From positions 1 through 64,000 of the forward strand of contig JARIEV010000004.1 in assembly GCA_031127225.1 (NCBI GenBank): a DNA stretch of 64,000 bases, read 5' to 3'. A program made the translations under genes and the position numbers. Below, one piece after another: positions 28,274 to 46,285 of this stretch (position 1 is the first letter of the stretch; each line of letters starts with the position of its first letter). This DNA comes from Gemmatimonadota bacterium. Lineage in GTDB: Bacteria > Gemmatimonadota > Gemmatimonadetes > Gemmatimonadales > Gemmatimonadaceae. The notes below the pieces were generated by a model. It was not told where the DNA came from, did not search any database, and worked only from the letters and a program-made list of their open reading frames with translations.

Positions 28274-28435
28274 GTGTATTTACGGCGTAGTACCTTTTCC
28301 TTCGCGTTCAAGTGGGACCCTGACAAAGCTGCTTCGAACGCGACCAAACACGGGATCGACTTCCGTGAGATCTCTGCCCGTTACGCCAGCCGCGAGGAGC
28401 GACGACGCTATGCACAAACGCCGCGAGGCGGGTAA
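28274..28435 (+). pseudogene. brnT: brnT toxin with an internal in-frame deletion
   Basis: FKWDPDKAASNATKHGIDFRE (BrnT N-terminus) runs directly into ISARYASREERRRYAQ (BrnT C-terminus); the middle is missing. No ATG start. Confidence 0.7.
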
Positions 28436-28823
28436 GTCCAAGATCGTACGGGTGCGGGCCGATCTGGCCACGCCGCGTTCGCGCAAGACCGCGCGCAACA
28501 CCGTGCCCAGTGACGCAGAGATCGAGCAGCGGGCAGCGAACGATCCCGACAACCCGGCACTGACCGCCGCGCAGCTTGCGTCGATGCACCTCTTGCGCGA
28601 CGCACCGCCCAAAGTGTTGTTGAGTCTGCGCGTCGATGCCCACGTGCTGGCCGCCTATCGCCGCAGTGGGAAAGGGTGGCAAACGCGGATGAACGAGGTG
28701 CTGGCAGCGGCGATCACCACGAGTGAGCCGAGTGTGTCCGCGGTCGTTGATGACATCGAAGCGTCGGCACGACGCACGCTGGCCCTTGCACAGCAGTTGC
28801 GGCAGCGCCGCGGGGACAGCTGA
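28410..28823 (+). CDS. brnA: BrnA-type antitoxin
   Basis: DAEIEQRAANDPDNPALTAAQLASM ... KVLLSLRVDAHVLAAYRRSGKGWQTRMNEVLAAAI. Confidence 0.7.
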   Translation: MHKRREAGKSKIVRVRADLATPRSRKTARNTVPSDAEIEQRAANDPDNPALTAAQLASMHLLRDAPPKVLLSLRVDAHVLAAYRRSGKGWQTRMNEVLAAAITTSEPSVSAVVDDIEASARRTLALAQQLRQRRGDS

Positions 28824-28948: not shown

Positions 28949-29356
28949 TCAAGCCGATCGCGGAGCCGCGCTGGCGATATCGGTCTCCGAGAAGTCCGCG
29001 CCTTTGTACAGCAGCGGCAGTCCGCGCACCTTCGCCAGCGCATAGCCAAATACGTCGCCGAAGTTGAGTGCGGCAGGATGCCCACTGCCCTTGCCGAAGG
29101 CCACGAATGCCGCATAGGCGGCGTCCATTTCCGCGATCCCCGGCGGAATCAGCTCGAACATCGGCAAGCGCAGCAGATCGTCCACGAGCACGACCGCTCG
29201 CTCGCCACGTCTCCCGTGGACCAGCATGCGCGCCTCGACGACCGAGACCGTGCTCACCAGCACACGCGGCGCGCGCCGGATCACGTCGATGAACGCCTCA
29301 CGTTCCGGTTCCGCGAACACGATGGCAATGATGGCGGACGTGTCAGCAACGATCAC
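28949..29356 (-). CDS. vapC: VapC-type PIN-domain toxin
   Basis: MIVADTSAIIAIVFAEPERE ... HPAALNFGDVFGYALAKVRGLPLLYKGADFSETDI. Confidence 0.9.
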   Translation of the reverse strand: MIVADTSAIIAIVFAEPEREAFIDVIRRAPRVLVSTVSVVEARMLVHGRRGERAVVLVDDLLRLPMFELIPPGIAEMDAAYAAFVAFGKGSGHPAALNFGDVFGYALAKVRGLPLLYKGADFSETDIASAAPRSA

Positions 29357-29592
29357 GCCGGCAATCCGCGCTCATCCCATTGCAGCGGATCGTACGCGTC
29401 CGGTCGGTCGGCGATGCGGTCGAGCTGGGCGAGCAAGGCCTCGAAGCGCTCGGACTGGTGCTGGGCTCCTTCGGATGCACTGATGAGCTGATCCAACGCG
29501 CGCTCCACCACGGCGGTCTTACTGAGGCCGAGGCGTTTTGCCATAAGTTCAACCTTCTGGACGACGACGGGGTTGGCGATTTGCAGCGCCAT
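29353..29592 (-). CDS. vapB: VapB-type antitoxin
   Basis: MALQIANPVVVQKVELMAKRLGLSKTAVVERALDQLI; ATGA overlap with vapC. Confidence 0.85.
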   Translation of the reverse strand: MALQIANPVVVQKVELMAKRLGLSKTAVVERALDQLISASEGAQHQSERFEALLAQLDRIADRPDAYDPLQWDERGLPA

Positions 29593-29603
29593 AGCCGCTC
29601 CGA

Positions 29604-29632
29604 TGTTGATATGTACATCATCAATATACATT
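29604..29632. promoter_or_regulatory. Candidate vapBC operator
   Basis: AT-rich TTGATATGTACATCATCAATATACAT just upstream of vapB; TTGAT/ATCAA inverted arms and a nearby ATGTACAT palindrome. Confidence 0.4.
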
Positions 29633-29654
29633 GAGGGCTTGTGGCGGCAAGGAC

Positions 29655-29712
29655 TTCAAGGGGTCGTCAAGGGGTCAGAGTACTTAGGCGCTCAAGGACG
29701 CTGACCCCTTGA
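29655..29712. repeat. REP-like palindrome
   Basis: Perfect 12-bp arms TCAAGGGGTCAG / CTGACCCCTTGA (29667-29678, 29701-29712) plus an extra TTCAAGGGGTC copy at 29655. Confidence 0.65.
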
Positions 29713-29767
29713 CACGTTACCCGACGAGCCGATCGTGACCACGCTGGGCCTGCTTGGACGCGGACCG

Positions 29768-31015
29768 TCATGGCCCCAGCGCACCAATGGGGATCACCAT
29801 GATGCCATCCTCGCGTCGGTAGGCCCCACCCGTCCCTACGATCACGCCGAGCACACTCGGCGCACCGAGCACGCGCGTATCGACCTTGGCGGCAAACCGG
29901 CGTAGCGACTTCACGGCGTCGTCGATGGCGAAGGTCCCCAATTTGATTTCGAAGGCGCCCCATCGCCCATCGCTGAGCGTGACAATCGCGTCCACCTCCA
30001 GCCCCGTGTTGTCACGGTATTGCTCAACCGTGCCGCGCACGGCGTCCGCATAGACGCGTAAATCGCGGATGACGAGTGATTCAAAGAGTAATCCTGCCAA
30101 TCGCAGGTCCTGCAGCAGCGCGTGCGGGGTCGCGCCGATGGCCGCGGCGGCTAACGCCGGATCCGTGAAGTGCACCACCGGTGCGGAGCGTTGTCGCGAC
30201 CGCGATCGCAAGTGGGTCCCCCACGACTGGAGCGGCTCGATCAGGTGGATGCGAGTCAACGTGTCGAGATACAGCGCGACCGTGTCGGGATCGATTGGCC
30301 GACCCGGTGTCACAGCATCGGCCGCAATGGCGGTCGCCGTCATCGGCCCGCCGCTGTGGCGTGCCAAGGCTCTGATCACGGCGTCCAGTCGCGCCGGTCG
30401 TGGTGTGCGACCGAGGAGCCGTGGAATATCCGCGTGCGCCACCGAGGCGAGGTACTCGCGATGGACGTCGAGCGTGTCGGCGGCCGTGCCTTGCACGCCC
30501 GGGAATCCACCCACGGTCACATGCGACAGCAACTCCGGGACTGTGAGCCCGGTGTCAGCCGCTGTCATGACGTCGGCGTTGAGCAATGCCGCGAGCGACA
30601 CCGCACCGGAACTGACCCCGAGTTCGGCAAGGGTGCAGGGACGCATCTTGATGCGAATGAAGCGGGCAGCACCGGTATGGCGCGTGTCGTTGTCGACGGG
30701 CACCGCCGAACCGGTGAGGATGAACTGGCCAGGCTGCGCGCGATCGTCGATGGCGCCGCGCACACTCCCCCAGATCTCTGGTACCAGTTGCCACTCGTCC
30801 AGCAGTCGTGGTATCGGCCCTCTGAGGAGGGCGTCGGGGGCGGTCTGCGCCAGCAATCGCGCGTTCGGGTCTCGGTCGAACGAGACACTGCTTGCCGCGT
30901 GCTCCAACGCCGTGCGTGTTTTGCCGCAGCCGCGCGGACCGTCGAGGACCACGCCACCGGCGCTTCGGAGCGCGCTGTCGAGGCGCGCGTCAACGATTCT
31001 GGGGCGATAGGTCAC
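29768..31015 (-). CDS. AAA+ ATPase with DUF4143-type C-terminus
   Basis: Walker A GPRGCGKTRTALEH; RLLDEWQLVPEIWGSVR; FILTGSAVP; C-terminal YRDNTGLEVDAIVTLSDGRWGAFEIKLG. Confidence 0.9.
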   Translation of the reverse strand: MTYRPRIVDARLDSALRSAGGVVLDGPRGCGKTRTALEHAASSVSFDRDPNARLLAQTAPDALLRGPIPRLLDEWQLVPEIWGSVRGAIDDRAQPGQFILTGSAVPVDNDTRHTGAARFIRIKMRPCTLAELGVSSGAVSLAALLNADVMTAADTGLTVPELLSHVTVGGFPGVQGTAADTLDVHREYLASVAHADIPRLLGRTPRPARLDAVIRALARHSGGPMTATAIAADAVTPGRPIDPDTVALYLDTLTRIHLIEPLQSWGTHLRSRSRQRSAPVVHFTDPALAAAAIGATPHALLQDLRLAGLLFESLVIRDLRVYADAVRGTVEQYRDNTGLEVDAIVTLSDGRWGAFEIKLGTFAIDDAVKSLRRFAAKVDTRVLGAPSVLGVIVGTGGAYRREDGIMVIPIGALGP

Positions 31016-31080
31016 GTGAAGGGGCGTACCGGGGGCGCGTGGCTGAATATTGGGCGGCTGATGGTGAAAGAAAGCCAGCT

Positions 31081-31188
31081 ATACCGGTTTTTGCAAGTCT
31101 GCTACACGGTATTTTGTACGCTTATTATACGGTTGTTTGCAACTTTTAAATACGGCACTTTGCAATCAATTATCACCGATTTTTGCAA
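31081..31188. repeat. Five-unit direct-repeat (iteron-like) array, 23-bp period
   Basis: ATACCGGTTTTTGCAA(31081) ACACGGTATTTTGTAC(31104) ATACGGTTGTTTGCAA(31127) ATACGGCACTTTGCAA(31150) TCACCGATTTTTGCAA(31173); every offset is exactly 23 bp. Confidence 0.9.
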
Positions 31189-31203
31189 TAAGTAGCGGCC
31201 TGC

Positions 31204-31275
31204 GGCGCCATCTGTGCGCCGGCAATGCGGAGAGAGTCGGAGATCATGACAAAGTCGGTTGGAAAAGAATGCGGC
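31204..31275 (-). pseudogene. Scar: diverged copy of the 5' end of the nitrilase gene
   Basis: Ungapped 72-bp match to 27779-27850 at roughly 86% identity by eye; encodes PHSFPTDFVMISDSLRIAGAQMAP. Confidence 0.85.
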
Positions 31276-31279
31276 CGAA

Positions 31280-31375
31280 CTACTGATCGGGCTCGTGCAT
31301 CCGCACCACCATCCCCGGTCCAGTGAGCGGCTCACGATCGAGACGCAGCTCGATGAACGTGGTCGTGAACGGATG
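31280..31375 (-). pseudogene. Scar: diverged copy of the 3' end of the lipase-like gene
   Basis: HPFTTTFIELRLDREPLTGPGMVVRMHEPDQ* versus HPFTTTFVEVRLDREPLTGAGMVVRLHTSDEAVQP* at 32157-32264. Confidence 0.85.
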
Positions 31376-31401
31376 GCCGCACACGACCGCGTCGCGGTCG
31401 G

Positions 31402-32160
31402 TCAGATAAGGCCCCGCAACGCCGCAAGGCGGGCGGAGAGATACCGTACGTAGTCTGCGCGACGCTGAACCGGGTCGGTGCCCAGCCAGCGATCCGGCAC
31501 CATGTCCACGGCGCCGGCCAGCACTTCGCGCGAGAGCAGCGGTGCCAGCTGCGCGTGCGCGTCGTCCAGCAGCGGCGCCACCCATCCGAACAAATGGCCG
31601 GTCACATCGTACGGACGCACCGCGTGCGCGTCCGTGACCGCGCTCCAGTCGTGATGAAAGGGCAGCGCCGCGCCGTGATCAATCAGCCAGATCGTGCCGC
31701 GGCGGATCATCAGGTTGGGATTGCGCAGGGAGCGGTCGAAATTCTGCACCACGGTATCCAACCAGAGCACGCGCGCGGCCACGTACAGATCGACGCCGGG
31801 CACTTCGGCGGCGGTCAGATCGCGCGCCGCCTCCAGCACCGTGAACCCCAGATTGAGTCCCGCGCTCGCATCCAACAGGTCGCGTAGCTCGTCGTTGATA
31901 TCGTCACTGGGCACGGCCGCGGGCAGCGTCACCAGCACGCGGGGCGGCACCGACAGCCCGATCGCCTCCGCCAGTTCAGCCACGATCACCTCCGCAATGA
32001 GCGGTGCCACGCCCTGCGATGCGCCGTGCAGTTTCGTGAACCACGCCCCCGAGGGGGAATCCACGATCACGGGAAGCGAACTACCACGCCGCTCACGGCG
32101 CAACACGCGGGTGCTCTCCACCTGCGGCAAGGCGGCGCACCGTGACGCAACGCGGCTCAT
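31402..32160 (-). CDS. HipA-like kinase-domain protein
   Basis: FTKLHGASQGVAPLIAEVIVAELAEAIGLSVP; NFDRSLRNPNLMIRRGTIWLIDHGAALPF; ATGA overlap with the upstream lipase-like gene. Confidence 0.7.
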   Translation of the reverse strand: MSRVASRCAALPQVESTRVLRRERRGSSLPVIVDSPSGAWFTKLHGASQGVAPLIAEVIVAELAEAIGLSVPPRVLVTLPAAVPSDDINDELRDLLDASAGLNLGFTVLEAARDLTAAEVPGVDLYVAARVLWLDTVVQNFDRSLRNPNLMIRRGTIWLIDHGAALPFHHDWSAVTDAHAVRPYDVTGHLFGWVAPLLDDAHAQLAPLLSREVLAGAVDMVPDRWLGTDPVQRRADYVRYLSARLAALRGLI

Positions 32161-33572
32161 GGTTGCACAGCCTCGTCGGAGGTGTGCAGCCGCACCACCA
32201 TCCCCGCCCCCGTGAGCGGCTCGCGATCGAGGCGCACCTCCACGAACGTCGTGGTGAACGGGTGAAAAAAGCGCACGTCCCCACCGGGGAGAATGCTGGA
32301 AAGATCGAGCGACCCATGCCACGTGCCGGCGCGATCGGGGACGCCCGTTGGCGCGGGGTCCGTCAGCGCGCCGGTGTAGTGCACCCGCGACGTGCCCGTG
32401 CTGGCGTACAGCTGCGCCGTTAACCGTCGCGGGCGGCTACCCAGCAGCGACGCGCGCGCGAGCGACGACAGATTCACGTGGAAGCAGCGATAACTGGGAT
32501 CGCCGCGATACACGTGCACGTCCTGCGCGAAAGCGTCGATGGCGGAACCGTCTCGGAGCGCCAGCTGCAGATTCCAATCGGGAATCGCGTCGCCGCGCTC
32601 GTCGACGGCGCGCACCACGAACTGCTGCCACGGCACCATCGCCTCGCGCGTGGCACGCACGGCCGCGTCGGCCGCGGTGCGCCACGCCGTATACCGGCCG
32701 CGCGACGACACGCGCAGCGCGTCGATCACCAGCTGCTGCAGCGCGGGCGGTGGGGCCGACAAAATCGTACCGTGATCCACACCCGCCACGGGATGCATGG
32801 GGACGTCATCGTGCGTCCAGTGCTTCACCTGCACGCGCGCCGCGTCGGCACACTCGGCCGTGAGATCGAGCACGATTTTGCGGCTGTTCAACGCGCAGCC
32901 AGCCCAGCGCACGGTGCCGTCGGTCCCGGGGCTGTTGGCAATCGCACGGACCCCGCGGGCACCACGCGCTCCACAGAACACGAACACATACGGCGTGTCG
33001 CGGCCAGTATCGTAGAAGCAGCTGTCGCCGAACAGATCGGCCTGCGACAGCTCCCAGCTGAACCGGCTCCCCAGCTCGAGCGCGTCGAGCACCTGATTGC
33101 CCGCCTCGAGAAAATCGGGGCCGGGGGTTTTGCGTCCCTTGACGAGTGCGCCGAGGAAGCTGCGCCCCTTGTGCGCGAGCGGCGATCCGAAGGTGGCCGG
33201 CGCCAGCGCGATCAGGTGTTTGAGCCGCGCGCGCCGTGCCGCCGTCATGCCGCGCCGCGTCAGCCACGCGCGCAACACCAGCATGCCCGTGGAGTGTACC
33301 ATCACGTCGAACGGTTCGTCGTCCGCCAGTCCGACCCGCTGCCGCAGCAACGTGTCGAATCCTTCGGCGATATCGCGTACCGACACTTCGTTGGTGAGCG
33401 ACTCGTAGCTCACCGTCACCAGTTGCCGGGAGCTCCAACCGGCTGCGTGCAAGATGCGGTGCCACGCGGCGAAGGCGTCGCCGTCGGCACTGTACCCGTG
33501 CAGCAGAATCAGCGGCCGGACCGCCGCGCGCCGGACAGTCGGGCTCACTAGCGCGTGTGCGACACGAGCCAC
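32157..33572 (-). CDS. Alpha/beta-hydrolase (lipase-like) with C-terminal extension
   Basis: PLILLHGYSADGDAFAAW; VMVHSTGMLVLRAWL; LKHLIALAPATFGSPLAHKG. Confidence 0.7.
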   Translation of the reverse strand: MARVAHALVSPTVRRAAVRPLILLHGYSADGDAFAAWHRILHAAGWSSRQLVTVSYESLTNEVSVRDIAEGFDTLLRQRVGLADDEPFDVMVHSTGMLVLRAWLTRRGMTAARRARLKHLIALAPATFGSPLAHKGRSFLGALVKGRKTPGPDFLEAGNQVLDALELGSRFSWELSQADLFGDSCFYDTGRDTPYVFVFCGARGARGVRAIANSPGTDGTVRWAGCALNSRKIVLDLTAECADAARVQVKHWTHDDVPMHPVAGVDHGTILSAPPPALQQLVIDALRVSSRGRYTAWRTAADAAVRATREAMVPWQQFVVRAVDERGDAIPDWNLQLALRDGSAIDAFAQDVHVYRGDPSYRCFHVNLSSLARASLLGSRPRRLTAQLYASTGTSRVHYTGALTDPAPTGVPDRAGTWHGSLDLSSILPGGDVRFFHPFTTTFVEVRLDREPLTGAGMVVRLHTSDEAVQP

Positions 33573-34804
33573 GGGACGGCACGCCGCACGCCATTCCCCA
33601 CCATCAGCAGATGCCCTTCGTGGCGGAACAGTTCGTACACCGCGCCCGGCGTCGCCTTCGCAGCCGCTTCCACACGCGCTGCGGGAATGATGCCGTCGAG
33701 TTCCGCGCCCACATACAGCGACGGCGGTGCACCGGGCACAGTGATCGGACTGCCGCCGGCCAGCATCGCCACCGCCGCGAATTGTGCCGGACGCGCCTGT
33801 ACCAAGCGTGCCGCCGCACCGGCGCCCATGGAGTGTCCGATCAGATACACGCGCGTACTGTCGATCCGGAATTCGTTGCGCAACAGCGCCATCAGCGCAT
33901 CAAAGTGGGCGGGGGTCACACCGAACACATCCGTGCGCGGCGACACCAGGATCAGCCGCTGTTCGGCCGCCAGCTTCGACACGATGCCGCTGCCGTACGC
34001 ATCGACGAACATATTTTCGTCGCCGCCGGCCCCGTGCAGCACGAGCAGCACACCGACCGGCTTGCGCACATTCGCCGAGGGGGGCGCGACGATGCGCATG
34101 GGCACAAGAGCGTTGTTCGCGCCCCGGTACACGCGCCAGAAATCGCCCACCAGACCGATGTACGGATCGCGCCCGCGCTCGAGCACACTCACCTCGCGCG
34201 CGAGGTCCCGCGACAGCGTGGCGGGATCGTGCAGAAACTCGGCGCTGCGCTCAGGCGACGGCACATCGACCAATAACCTCGCGCGCTCGCGCGTGGACAG
34301 CAGCGCCTGCGCCAGCGGTCCCGTGCTGTCGACACCGGCCAGTCGCGCGAGATATTCGTCGCGCGCGGCGCTGACCGGCGCACCATGGAGCGAGCGCGGA
34401 CCACGCACCGGCGTGGAAGCCACCGGCGTGGAAGCCACCGGCGTGGAGGCCACCGGCACGCCGCTCAACTGCAACTGCGCCGCATCGATGGTGCCCACGG
34501 CCGCGGCGAACTGGCCGCTGAAAAAGCTGAGCGCCGCGCGGTCGACGATGCGGTTGATCTGCGCGCGCAGACTGTCCGGCAGGGTCTTCGCCGTTTCGCG
34601 CTGCGTGTACGCGGCATCGACGCGCATGTATGCAGCCGCGAGATCGGCGCGCGTCACCTTCGGGGTGGTCGGCGCTGCCGCGGGCACAGGTGCTGGAGGC
34701 GTCGCGGACACCTGCGCCCACGCGCTGGCCGGTGCACCCACGAGGGTGGCGGCCAGCGACGCCGCCAACGACGCGGCCAGGGCGGAACGGGAGATCATCG
34801 TCAT
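33548..34804 (-). CDS. Secreted alpha/beta hydrolase
   Basis: Signal peptide; [48 protein letters not shown]. Confidence 0.75.
34406..34460. repeat. 15-bp tandem repeat inside the hydrolase gene
   Basis: CACCGGCGTGGAAGC x3 plus a partial copy; encodes VASTP x3. Confidence 0.9.
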
Positions 34805-45377: not shown

Positions 45378-46282
45378 ACGCGCACCCGGCGGATCCGCCA
45401 GCACGTGCCGGCCACGCCCACCGCGCCGAGCGCGAGAGCCATCGCGACAAAGACCCACAACGATGGCGGCGGTGTGAGCTCCATCGCGCGCGTCGGTTCG
45501 TCGAACAGGATGCGCAGCATGGTGTTGAGCGAGCGGATCGGGTCGATCAGGTCGGCCACCACGGACGAGATGCCCGTGAGATCGTCCAGACCGGCCGAGA
45601 CGGCGGCAGCGGTGAGAAACACCCCGATGATCGACGCCGATGCATACGCGCGTCGCGCCGTCAGCGAGGCCAACGCCGACGCGAGACCACCGATCACCCA
45701 CGCCGTGAGCGTCCCCTGCAACAGCACCGGGCCAACCTTCGGAGCCAGTGCCACGGCCGCCGCGGCCGGATCGGCCGCGATCCCGATCTGCCCCACGGTC
45801 AGCAGCAGCAGCGGCGCACCCGTCACCACCAGCATGGCACACAACACTGCAGCCAGACGCGCGGCGGCGTACTGCAGCCGGGTGACGTCGCGCGTGAGAA
45901 TGAGGGGGAGCACGCGGTGCTGCTGGTCGCGGCTCAGCACCTCCGGCGCCTGCGCCGCGGCAAAGAGCACGTGCAGGAGCAGCGCCGGCCCGATGAAGCC
46001 CGCATACGTGATCGGCATCTGTCCCTGCGTGGCCGAGGATGCCACGAGCGCGCCCAGACACGGCAGCAGCGACACCGCAATCAGGAACACCGGAATCGCC
46101 TTCGCCCGTGCCGGACGGCCCACACCGAACATGCCGCGGAACCCCTGCCAGAACAGCGCGCGTCGCGCCCCGCGCGCGCCCTCACGCGCCCCGTCGTAGC
46201 GCTGGTACCCAAGGTCGTGAATCGTCGTGGCCTGCGGCATCGGCGCACTCACGGAGGGCGCACTCACGGAGGGCGCACTCAC
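45374..46282 (-). CDS. ABC transporter permease
   Basis: TIHDLGYQRYDGAREG ... ALLLHVLFAAAQAPEVLSRDQQHRVLPLILTRDVTRLQY. Confidence 0.8.
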   Translation of the reverse strand: MSAPSVSAPSVSAPMPQATTIHDLGYQRYDGAREGARGARRALFWQGFRGMFGVGRPARAKAIPVFLIAVSLLPCLGALVASSATQGQMPITYAGFIGPALLLHVLFAAAQAPEVLSRDQQHRVLPLILTRDVTRLQYAAARLAAVLCAMLVVTGAPLLLLTVGQIGIAADPAAAAVALAPKVGPVLLQGTLTAWVIGGLASALASLTARRAYASASIIGVFLTAAAVSAGLDDLTGISSVVADLIDPIRSLNTMLRILFDEPTRAMELTPPPSLWVFVAMALALGAVGVAGTCWRIRRVRV

Positions 46283-46285
46283 GAG
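46242..46285. repeat. 15-bp tandem repeat duplicating a GTG start codon
   Basis: GGCGCACTCACGGAG x2 plus GGCGCACTCACGAG; each unit carries GTGA on the reverse strand. Confidence 0.85.

Follow-up and report, generated by a model that had tools for sequence, protein, structure and literature searches.

The stretch of DNA analysed here, referred to as the window, comprises 64,000 nucleotides of a contig from a Gemmatimonadota bacterium and harbours an ATPase gene preceded by a short array of direct repeats (Table 1). The encoded protein matches the Pfam families PF13173 (AAA_14) and PF13635 (DUF4143) and no Pfam family beyond these two, so that it is not a Rep-family initiator. It carries a Walker A motif (GPRGCGKT), a Walker B motif (LLDEWQ) and a sensor motif (TGSA). 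The AlphaFold2 model of the protein (pLDDT 92.7, pTM 0.92) has Orc1/Cdc6-type and archaeal Walker ATPases (2QEN, 2QBY) as its nearest solved folds, at a best TM-score of 0.42-0.48, with lower scores for others; a sequence search of the PDB gave no lead. Alignment of 114 homologous proteins revealed that the Walker A and B motifs are near-invariant, as are residues E312, D342, E356 and K358, which were assigned to the PD-(D/E)XK motif from the sequence pattern and the secondary structure of the model. Since these catalytic-type residues are near-invariant, ATPase and nuclease activities are probably kept in the array-bearing family; nuclease activity of the window ATPase itself is speculative.

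Table 1 Features of the window discussed in the text (positions are those of the window)
Feature	Position	Strand	Remarks
BrnA-type antitoxin gene	28365-28823	+	Same accessory island as the ATPase gene
VapBC-like pair (Rv0623-like antitoxin and PIN-domain gene)	28949-29631	-	Adjoins the ATPase block
REP-like palindrome	29655-29713		20-nt arms
ATPase gene	29768-31015	-	415 aa; AAA+ ATPase, winged HTH, PD-(D/E)XK domain
Codons of residues 335-337 (D-N-T)	30005-30013	-	Turn in the PD-(D/E)XK domain; covary with half-site A
Codons of residues 242-244 (D-P-D)	30284-30292	-	N-terminus of the wHTH recognition helix; covary with half-site B
Array of five 16-nt direct repeats	31081-31188	-	Consensus TTGCAAANNNCCGTAT; exact 23-bp register, just upstream of the ATPase gene
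Repeat unit 5	31081-31096	-	TTGCAAAAACCGGTAT; nearest to the gene
Repeat unit 4	31104-31119	-	GTACAAAATACCGTGT; degenerate
Repeat unit 3	31127-31142	-	TTGCAAACAACCGTAT; exact; TTGCAA could serve as -35-like element
Repeat unit 2	31150-31165	-	TTGCAAAGTGCCGTAT; exact
Repeat unit 1	31173-31188	-	TTGCAAAAATCGGTGA; most distant from the gene
HipA-like kinase gene	31402-32322	-	Matches the PADLOC candidate PDC-M66A

The minus-strand sites of the array start at positions 31081, 31104, 31127, 31150 and 31173, with a step of exactly 23 bp. Two units match the consensus exactly, one has a single mismatch and two more degenerate units have three. The lag-23 identity of the array was matched by none of 100,000 local shuffles, which rules out a chance repeat, and the best lag-23 score elsewhere in the window is 42 matches versus 56 in the array. 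An Rfam search of positions 29500-31500 returned no family at E<=0.1, and a known structured RNA element was rejected on this ground. In the own genome, every motif match with 0-1 mismatch falls inside the array, while matches with up to 2 mismatches (11 in total) are at the noise level set by a reversed-pattern control (13). Sites with 0-1 mismatch are likewise essentially restricted to the array in three Corynebacterium genomes. The possibility that the array sites form part of a wider regulon was therefore rejected. The Pfam matches, the shuffles and the genome-wide motif scan thus bear out both components described in the earlier note, an ATPase gene and an adjoining phased repeat array. 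Elsewhere in the window, 15-bp tandem repeats of frame-keeping length are found at 34406-34457 and 46242-46283.

The gene and array lie at the boundary of a nitrilase and a hydrolase gene, within an accessory island that also harbours the VapBC-like pair, the BrnA-like antitoxin gene and the HipA-like kinase gene. Other congeneric genomes have the nitrilase gene next to the hydrolase gene, with sequence matching 31204-31375 linking the two. This segment, previously described as a scar of chromosomal genes, is indeed a relict of the nitrilase/hydrolase boundary at the chromosomal locus. In the congeneric genome G372 the sole homology to positions 20001-45000 of the window is 29762-31186 (86% identity), which comprises the gene and the array in an unrelated context, and in genome G172 the homologous block corresponds to 29754-31210. 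Since G372 shares only this segment, the ends proposed earlier for the block (29768 and 31188) are close to those of the conserved unit. The palindrome, taken earlier (as 29655-29712) for one of the borders, lies outside the unit, because it is kept in the congeneric genome G296, which is 96-98% identical around the site and lacks both the block and the ATPase. No clean empty site was seen; G296 has other DNA there, about 400 bp in place of the ATPase block (L295, 1581-1987) that by eye resembles a fragment of a LuxR-type HTH gene. Inspection of the gene-array block for terminal repeats (by eye), a target-site duplication or a recombinase revealed none. Gene and array recur as a block in differing contexts. 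A shortened orphan array with the same motif and without the ATPase is present in G172 (contig C144; L301, 4885-4990), where the nitrilase/hydrolase boundary occurs a second time.

The array is a property of a widespread family. An upstream 23-bp array accompanies 162 of 179 non-redundant homologs at p<1/300, and 171 at p<=1%, and the array-bearing homologs span a dozen or so bacterial phyla. The earlier note had named an ATPase without the array, or an array without linkage to the ATPase, as observations that would refute the pairing; the former is not the rule, and the latter was encountered once, as the shortened remnant in G172. A periodicity test on the sequences upstream of 90 Gemmatimonadota homologs, covering every lag between 8 and 60, was significant at p<1/300 in 75 cases, with sharp peaks at 23 and 46 and without signal at lags 22 and 24. 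A scan of a genome collection (80 loci) found arrays upstream of 75 of 79 genes at p<1/300 versus 2 of 77 downstream of the same genes. By record title, these loci belong to Gemmatimonadota, Actinomycetes, Chloroflexi, Cyanobacteria, Spirochaetaceae, Clostridiales, Alpha-, Gamma- and Deltaproteobacteria, Nitrospirales, Elusimicrobia, Acidobacteria, Myxococcales and Rhodothermales. Another 48 loci, among them viral-contig copies and plasmid copies from Collinsella, Bacteroides, Prosthecochloris and Lentilactobacillus, carried the array in 43 cases. A compositional artefact of AT-rich upstream DNA is rejected by the local shuffles and the downstream control.

The array is not common to all DUF4143 proteins. 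In a sister subfamily from the same phylum (C178/L003-like), which shares the Pfam domain, the PADLOC model and the genomes with the array-bearing type, a 23-bp array was found at only 2 of 29 loci, and any other upstream periodicity was absent from these loci too. In one genus a genome may contain as many as 9 members of this subfamily (L245-L274), and sister-type copies are sometimes found near the array-bearing type on one contig (G128 C151, G059 C75).

Presence of the array-bearing family is patchy, with matches in 77 of 395 genomes of the phylum at E<=1e-40. Several diverged copies with differing motifs occur per genome; the motif divergence of such same-genome paralogs is not beyond that expected from their protein divergence. 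Several copies of the family are located on Mb-sized chromosomes. Only 9 of 72,556 plasmid records and 4 of 50,697 phage records were matched, by which a mainly plasmid or phage gene is rejected. Among 483 ORFs at 79 loci no neighbour gene recurred. This rejects a conserved partner gene and upholds the earlier description of a compact unit without one: gene and array alone are the unit.

Arrays mostly contain 3-5 sites, four being present at 70 of 125 loci. The sites have a single orientation, a reverse-oriented site of at least 60% strength being present at just 3 of the 125 loci, and almost no additional sites occur at spacings other than 23 bp. The aligned 23-mer consists of half-site A (family consensus TTGCAAA), half-site B (approximately CNCCGTT) and a linker of 6-7 bp. 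In the window half-site A is TTGCAAA and half-site B is CCGTAT, and motifs vary widely from homolog to homolog.

This variation follows that of the protein. Mutual information was calculated between the 415 protein positions and the 23 motif columns, permutation-standardised and average-product corrected. The top of the resulting list is dominated by residues 335-337 paired with columns 5-7 and residues 242-244 paired with columns 13-17. In the AlphaFold2 model residue 243 starts the recognition helix (243-255), and residues 335-339 form a beta-turn between strands 328-334 and 340-347, beside the PD-(D/E)XK residues. The pairings can be read as a code. In half-site A, RDNT pairs with TTGC and REK with GCC, and the base in column 15 is C with D or E at residue 244, G with H and T with R. 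Shared ancestry was controlled for with 56 disjoint nearest pairs and a partial correlation that takes overall identity into account. Residues 244 and 242 then rank first and second of 316 for half-site B, and residues 337 and 336 fourth and eleventh of 316 for half-site A. In a tree-aware test, based on a tree built without the candidate contact residues, 10 of 15 changes in column 6 fell on branches on which residue 336 changes (p 3e-8, the highest-ranking among 349 residues) and 16 of 30 changes in column 15 on branches on which residue 244 changes (p 3e-5, the best residue for this column). The half-site B columns 13, 14 and 16 were topped by other residues, and residue 243 found no support in this test. 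In a hold-out set of 32 loci, whose phyla partly overlap those of the training set, the two couplings reached z values of 5.4 and 5.2 versus 1.4 and 1.3 for the crossed pairs, and no residue predicted better out of sample than 336 and 244. Because the covariation of motif and protein survives the tree-aware test and the hold-out, the ATPase very likely binds its own array, as predicted from the sequences through two of its domains. Array and ATPase thus co-vary in sequence and, as the G372 block in its unrelated context indicates, also co-transfer, both as asked in the earlier note.

Consensus scanning places the best predicted promoter over array sites in 88% of the loci, and in the commonest layout the -10 box lies 23 bp past the start of the last array site. 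A formal promoter scan of the window gave no match; by eye, a candidate -10 element (TACAAA) can be discerned in unit 4, 18 bp beyond the TTGCAA in unit 3, and a homolog of 99% identity (L018) has TATAAA at this place. As the half-site TTGCAA itself looks like a -35 box, the promoter overlap is suggestive only. The position of the array over the predicted promoter points to autoregulation, by which the ATPase likely controls its own expression; repression would be likelier than activation, which is possible.

On these grounds we consider it probable that the array serves the ATPase as a multi-site operator of its own, on which an oligomer of a candidate defence protein would control its own gene. 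In the proposed mechanism one protomer would occupy each 23-bp unit, the wHTH recognition helix (242-244) reading half-site B and the turn in the PD-(D/E)XK domain (335-337) reading half-site A. Three to six protomers may bind as a contacting head-to-tail AAA+ oligomer, since the spacing is rigid at 23 bp and the orientation single. A length of 23 bp corresponds to approximately 2.2 helical turns, so that successive protomers would be rotated by approximately 70 degrees, near the step of a six-membered AAA+ spiral. Together with the absence of 22- and 24-bp arrays, this step suggests direct contacts between array-bound protomers. The oligomer would cover the promoter and thereby control, most likely repress, its own gene. 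The array-bound state might keep the ATPase scarce and inactive, and a perturbation, for example takeover by a phage, could free or remodel the bound ATPase; such a defence trigger is speculative. The gene itself would encode an ATPase-nuclease of the PDC-S01 candidate-defence group that stands alone and spreads horizontally.

The assignment to this group is based on the PADLOC profile PDLC04790, a PDC-S01 model that matches the window ATPase over residues 2-413 of 415 (E 3.2e-59). A 2026 study of archaeal immunity ranks PDC-S01 fourth among prokaryotic defence systems by frequency, counts 29,494 such systems in bacteria and 9,986 in archaea, and describes it as an ATPase fused to a PD-(D/E)XK domain; most PDC candidates, which were defined in a 2024 preprint (bioRxiv 2024.01.29.577857, as cited there), await validation (PMC12988326). 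The window ATPase resembles these systems as a single gene that combines both domains. It differs in its array and DNA-recognition code, neither of which is mentioned for PDC-S01 in the available text of that study (PMC12988326). The label also takes in the array-less sister subfamily, whose match to this model is even stronger, so that the array is a mark of one PDC-S01 subfamily. A defence role is plausible on the basis of the PADLOC candidate label. Of the roles guessed in the earlier note (defence, segregation or mobility) it is the one that stands, by that label only. Segregation and self-mobility are unsupported: the gene has no partner, copies on plasmids or phages are few, and neither a clean empty site nor a recombinase was seen.

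It is a distinct possibility that the array is an ordinary autoregulatory operator of an ATPase with a housekeeping or stress function rather than a role in defence, in which case the spacing would reflect cooperative repressor binding. The overlap of the array with the promoter and the restriction of the sites to the array agree with this, as does the fact that defence is a candidate label. The patchy presence in the phylum (77 of 395 genomes), the occurrence in many phyla, the several divergent copies per genome and the invariance of ATPase and nuclease-type residues speak more for an accessory gene involved in conflict than for housekeeping. More tentatively, the protein may be an ATPase of immunity or conflict that works as a single gene and uses its nuclease domain to read sequence as well. 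Its AAA+ protomers would then assemble on the private cis array at a fixed pitch of 23 bp; the array would act both as a self-address and as a safety platform, and a two-part code that can be re-written would give every copy an address of its own. The array may also be a functional target, that is, an assembly or cleavage platform for the nuclease (for licensing, self-marking or homing-like copying), with autoregulation being secondary. In favour of such a target, the PD-(D/E)XK domain itself appears to touch the site and its catalytic-type residues are near-invariant, and the movement of gene and array as a block and the shortened orphan array in G172 also fit. We consider it unlikely: the nuclease would cut an array left intact next to its gene, neither a clean empty target nor terminal repeats nor a target-site duplication came to light, and the promoter overlap already accounts for the array.

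A minimal replication or segregation element, of the iteron/Rep or parS/ParA type, is very improbable. Rep initiators of iteron plasmids are winged-helix proteins that bind direct repeats of approximately 17-22 bp and often autoregulate. The array and ATPase share several features with these systems: head-to-tail repeats of near-equal length, close to 22 bp and located at or near the own promoter, recognition by a wHTH, and regular direct repeats beside the gene of the binding protein, binding being deduced here from covariation. Furthermore, Cdc6/Orc1 proteins are among the fold neighbours. The ATPase differs from Rep proteins in combining AAA+ and PD-(D/E)XK domains instead of tandem wHTH domains, in having half of its site apparently read by a nuclease-type domain, and in its few plasmid copies and a motif that changes between homologs. 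A location at plasmid origins is contradicted by the 9 matched plasmid records among 72,556 and by the copies on Mb-sized chromosomes, and no centromere-binding partner of the ParA/parS kind recurs at the 79 loci. Orc1/Cdc6-type and archaeal Walker ATPases (2QEN, 2QBY) share the order of an AAA+ domain followed by a winged helix, but to our knowledge neither has a PD-(D/E)XK reading module or a promoter array. That another host regulator binds the repeats, the ATPase being simply the regulated gene, agrees with the location of the arrays at promoters and is scarcely credible, as the motif tracks ATPase residues at two independent positions that look like DNA contacts, both within the sample and outside it, and paralogs within one genome differ in motif.

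With the ATPase's own multi-site operator as the preferred reading, the homologs likely constitute an ATPase-nuclease family that extends across phyla, whose operator arrays are private and rigidly spaced and whose recognition code involves two domains. No report of an upstream array or a recognition code for DUF4143/PDC-S01 ATPases was found in a search of freely accessible published papers, and the novelty is therefore provisional. PDC-S01 is abundant, yet no account was found of what the protein recognises. The private array and two-part code would provide a testable handle, as the DNA target, the contact residues and control of the promoter are all predicted. The data also suggest that a PD-(D/E)XK domain can be half of a sequence-specific reader in an AAA+ oligomer, and the recognition code might be rewritten to obtain orthogonal DNA-binding ATPases. 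In a Thermus study, the one paper found in this search to name DUF4143, a DUF4143 gene was upregulated 6.6-fold with plasmid in Ago-encoding cells. The cyanobacterial copies L124 and L130 of the array-bearing family sit between genes that, by sequence appearance, resemble type I restriction subunits.
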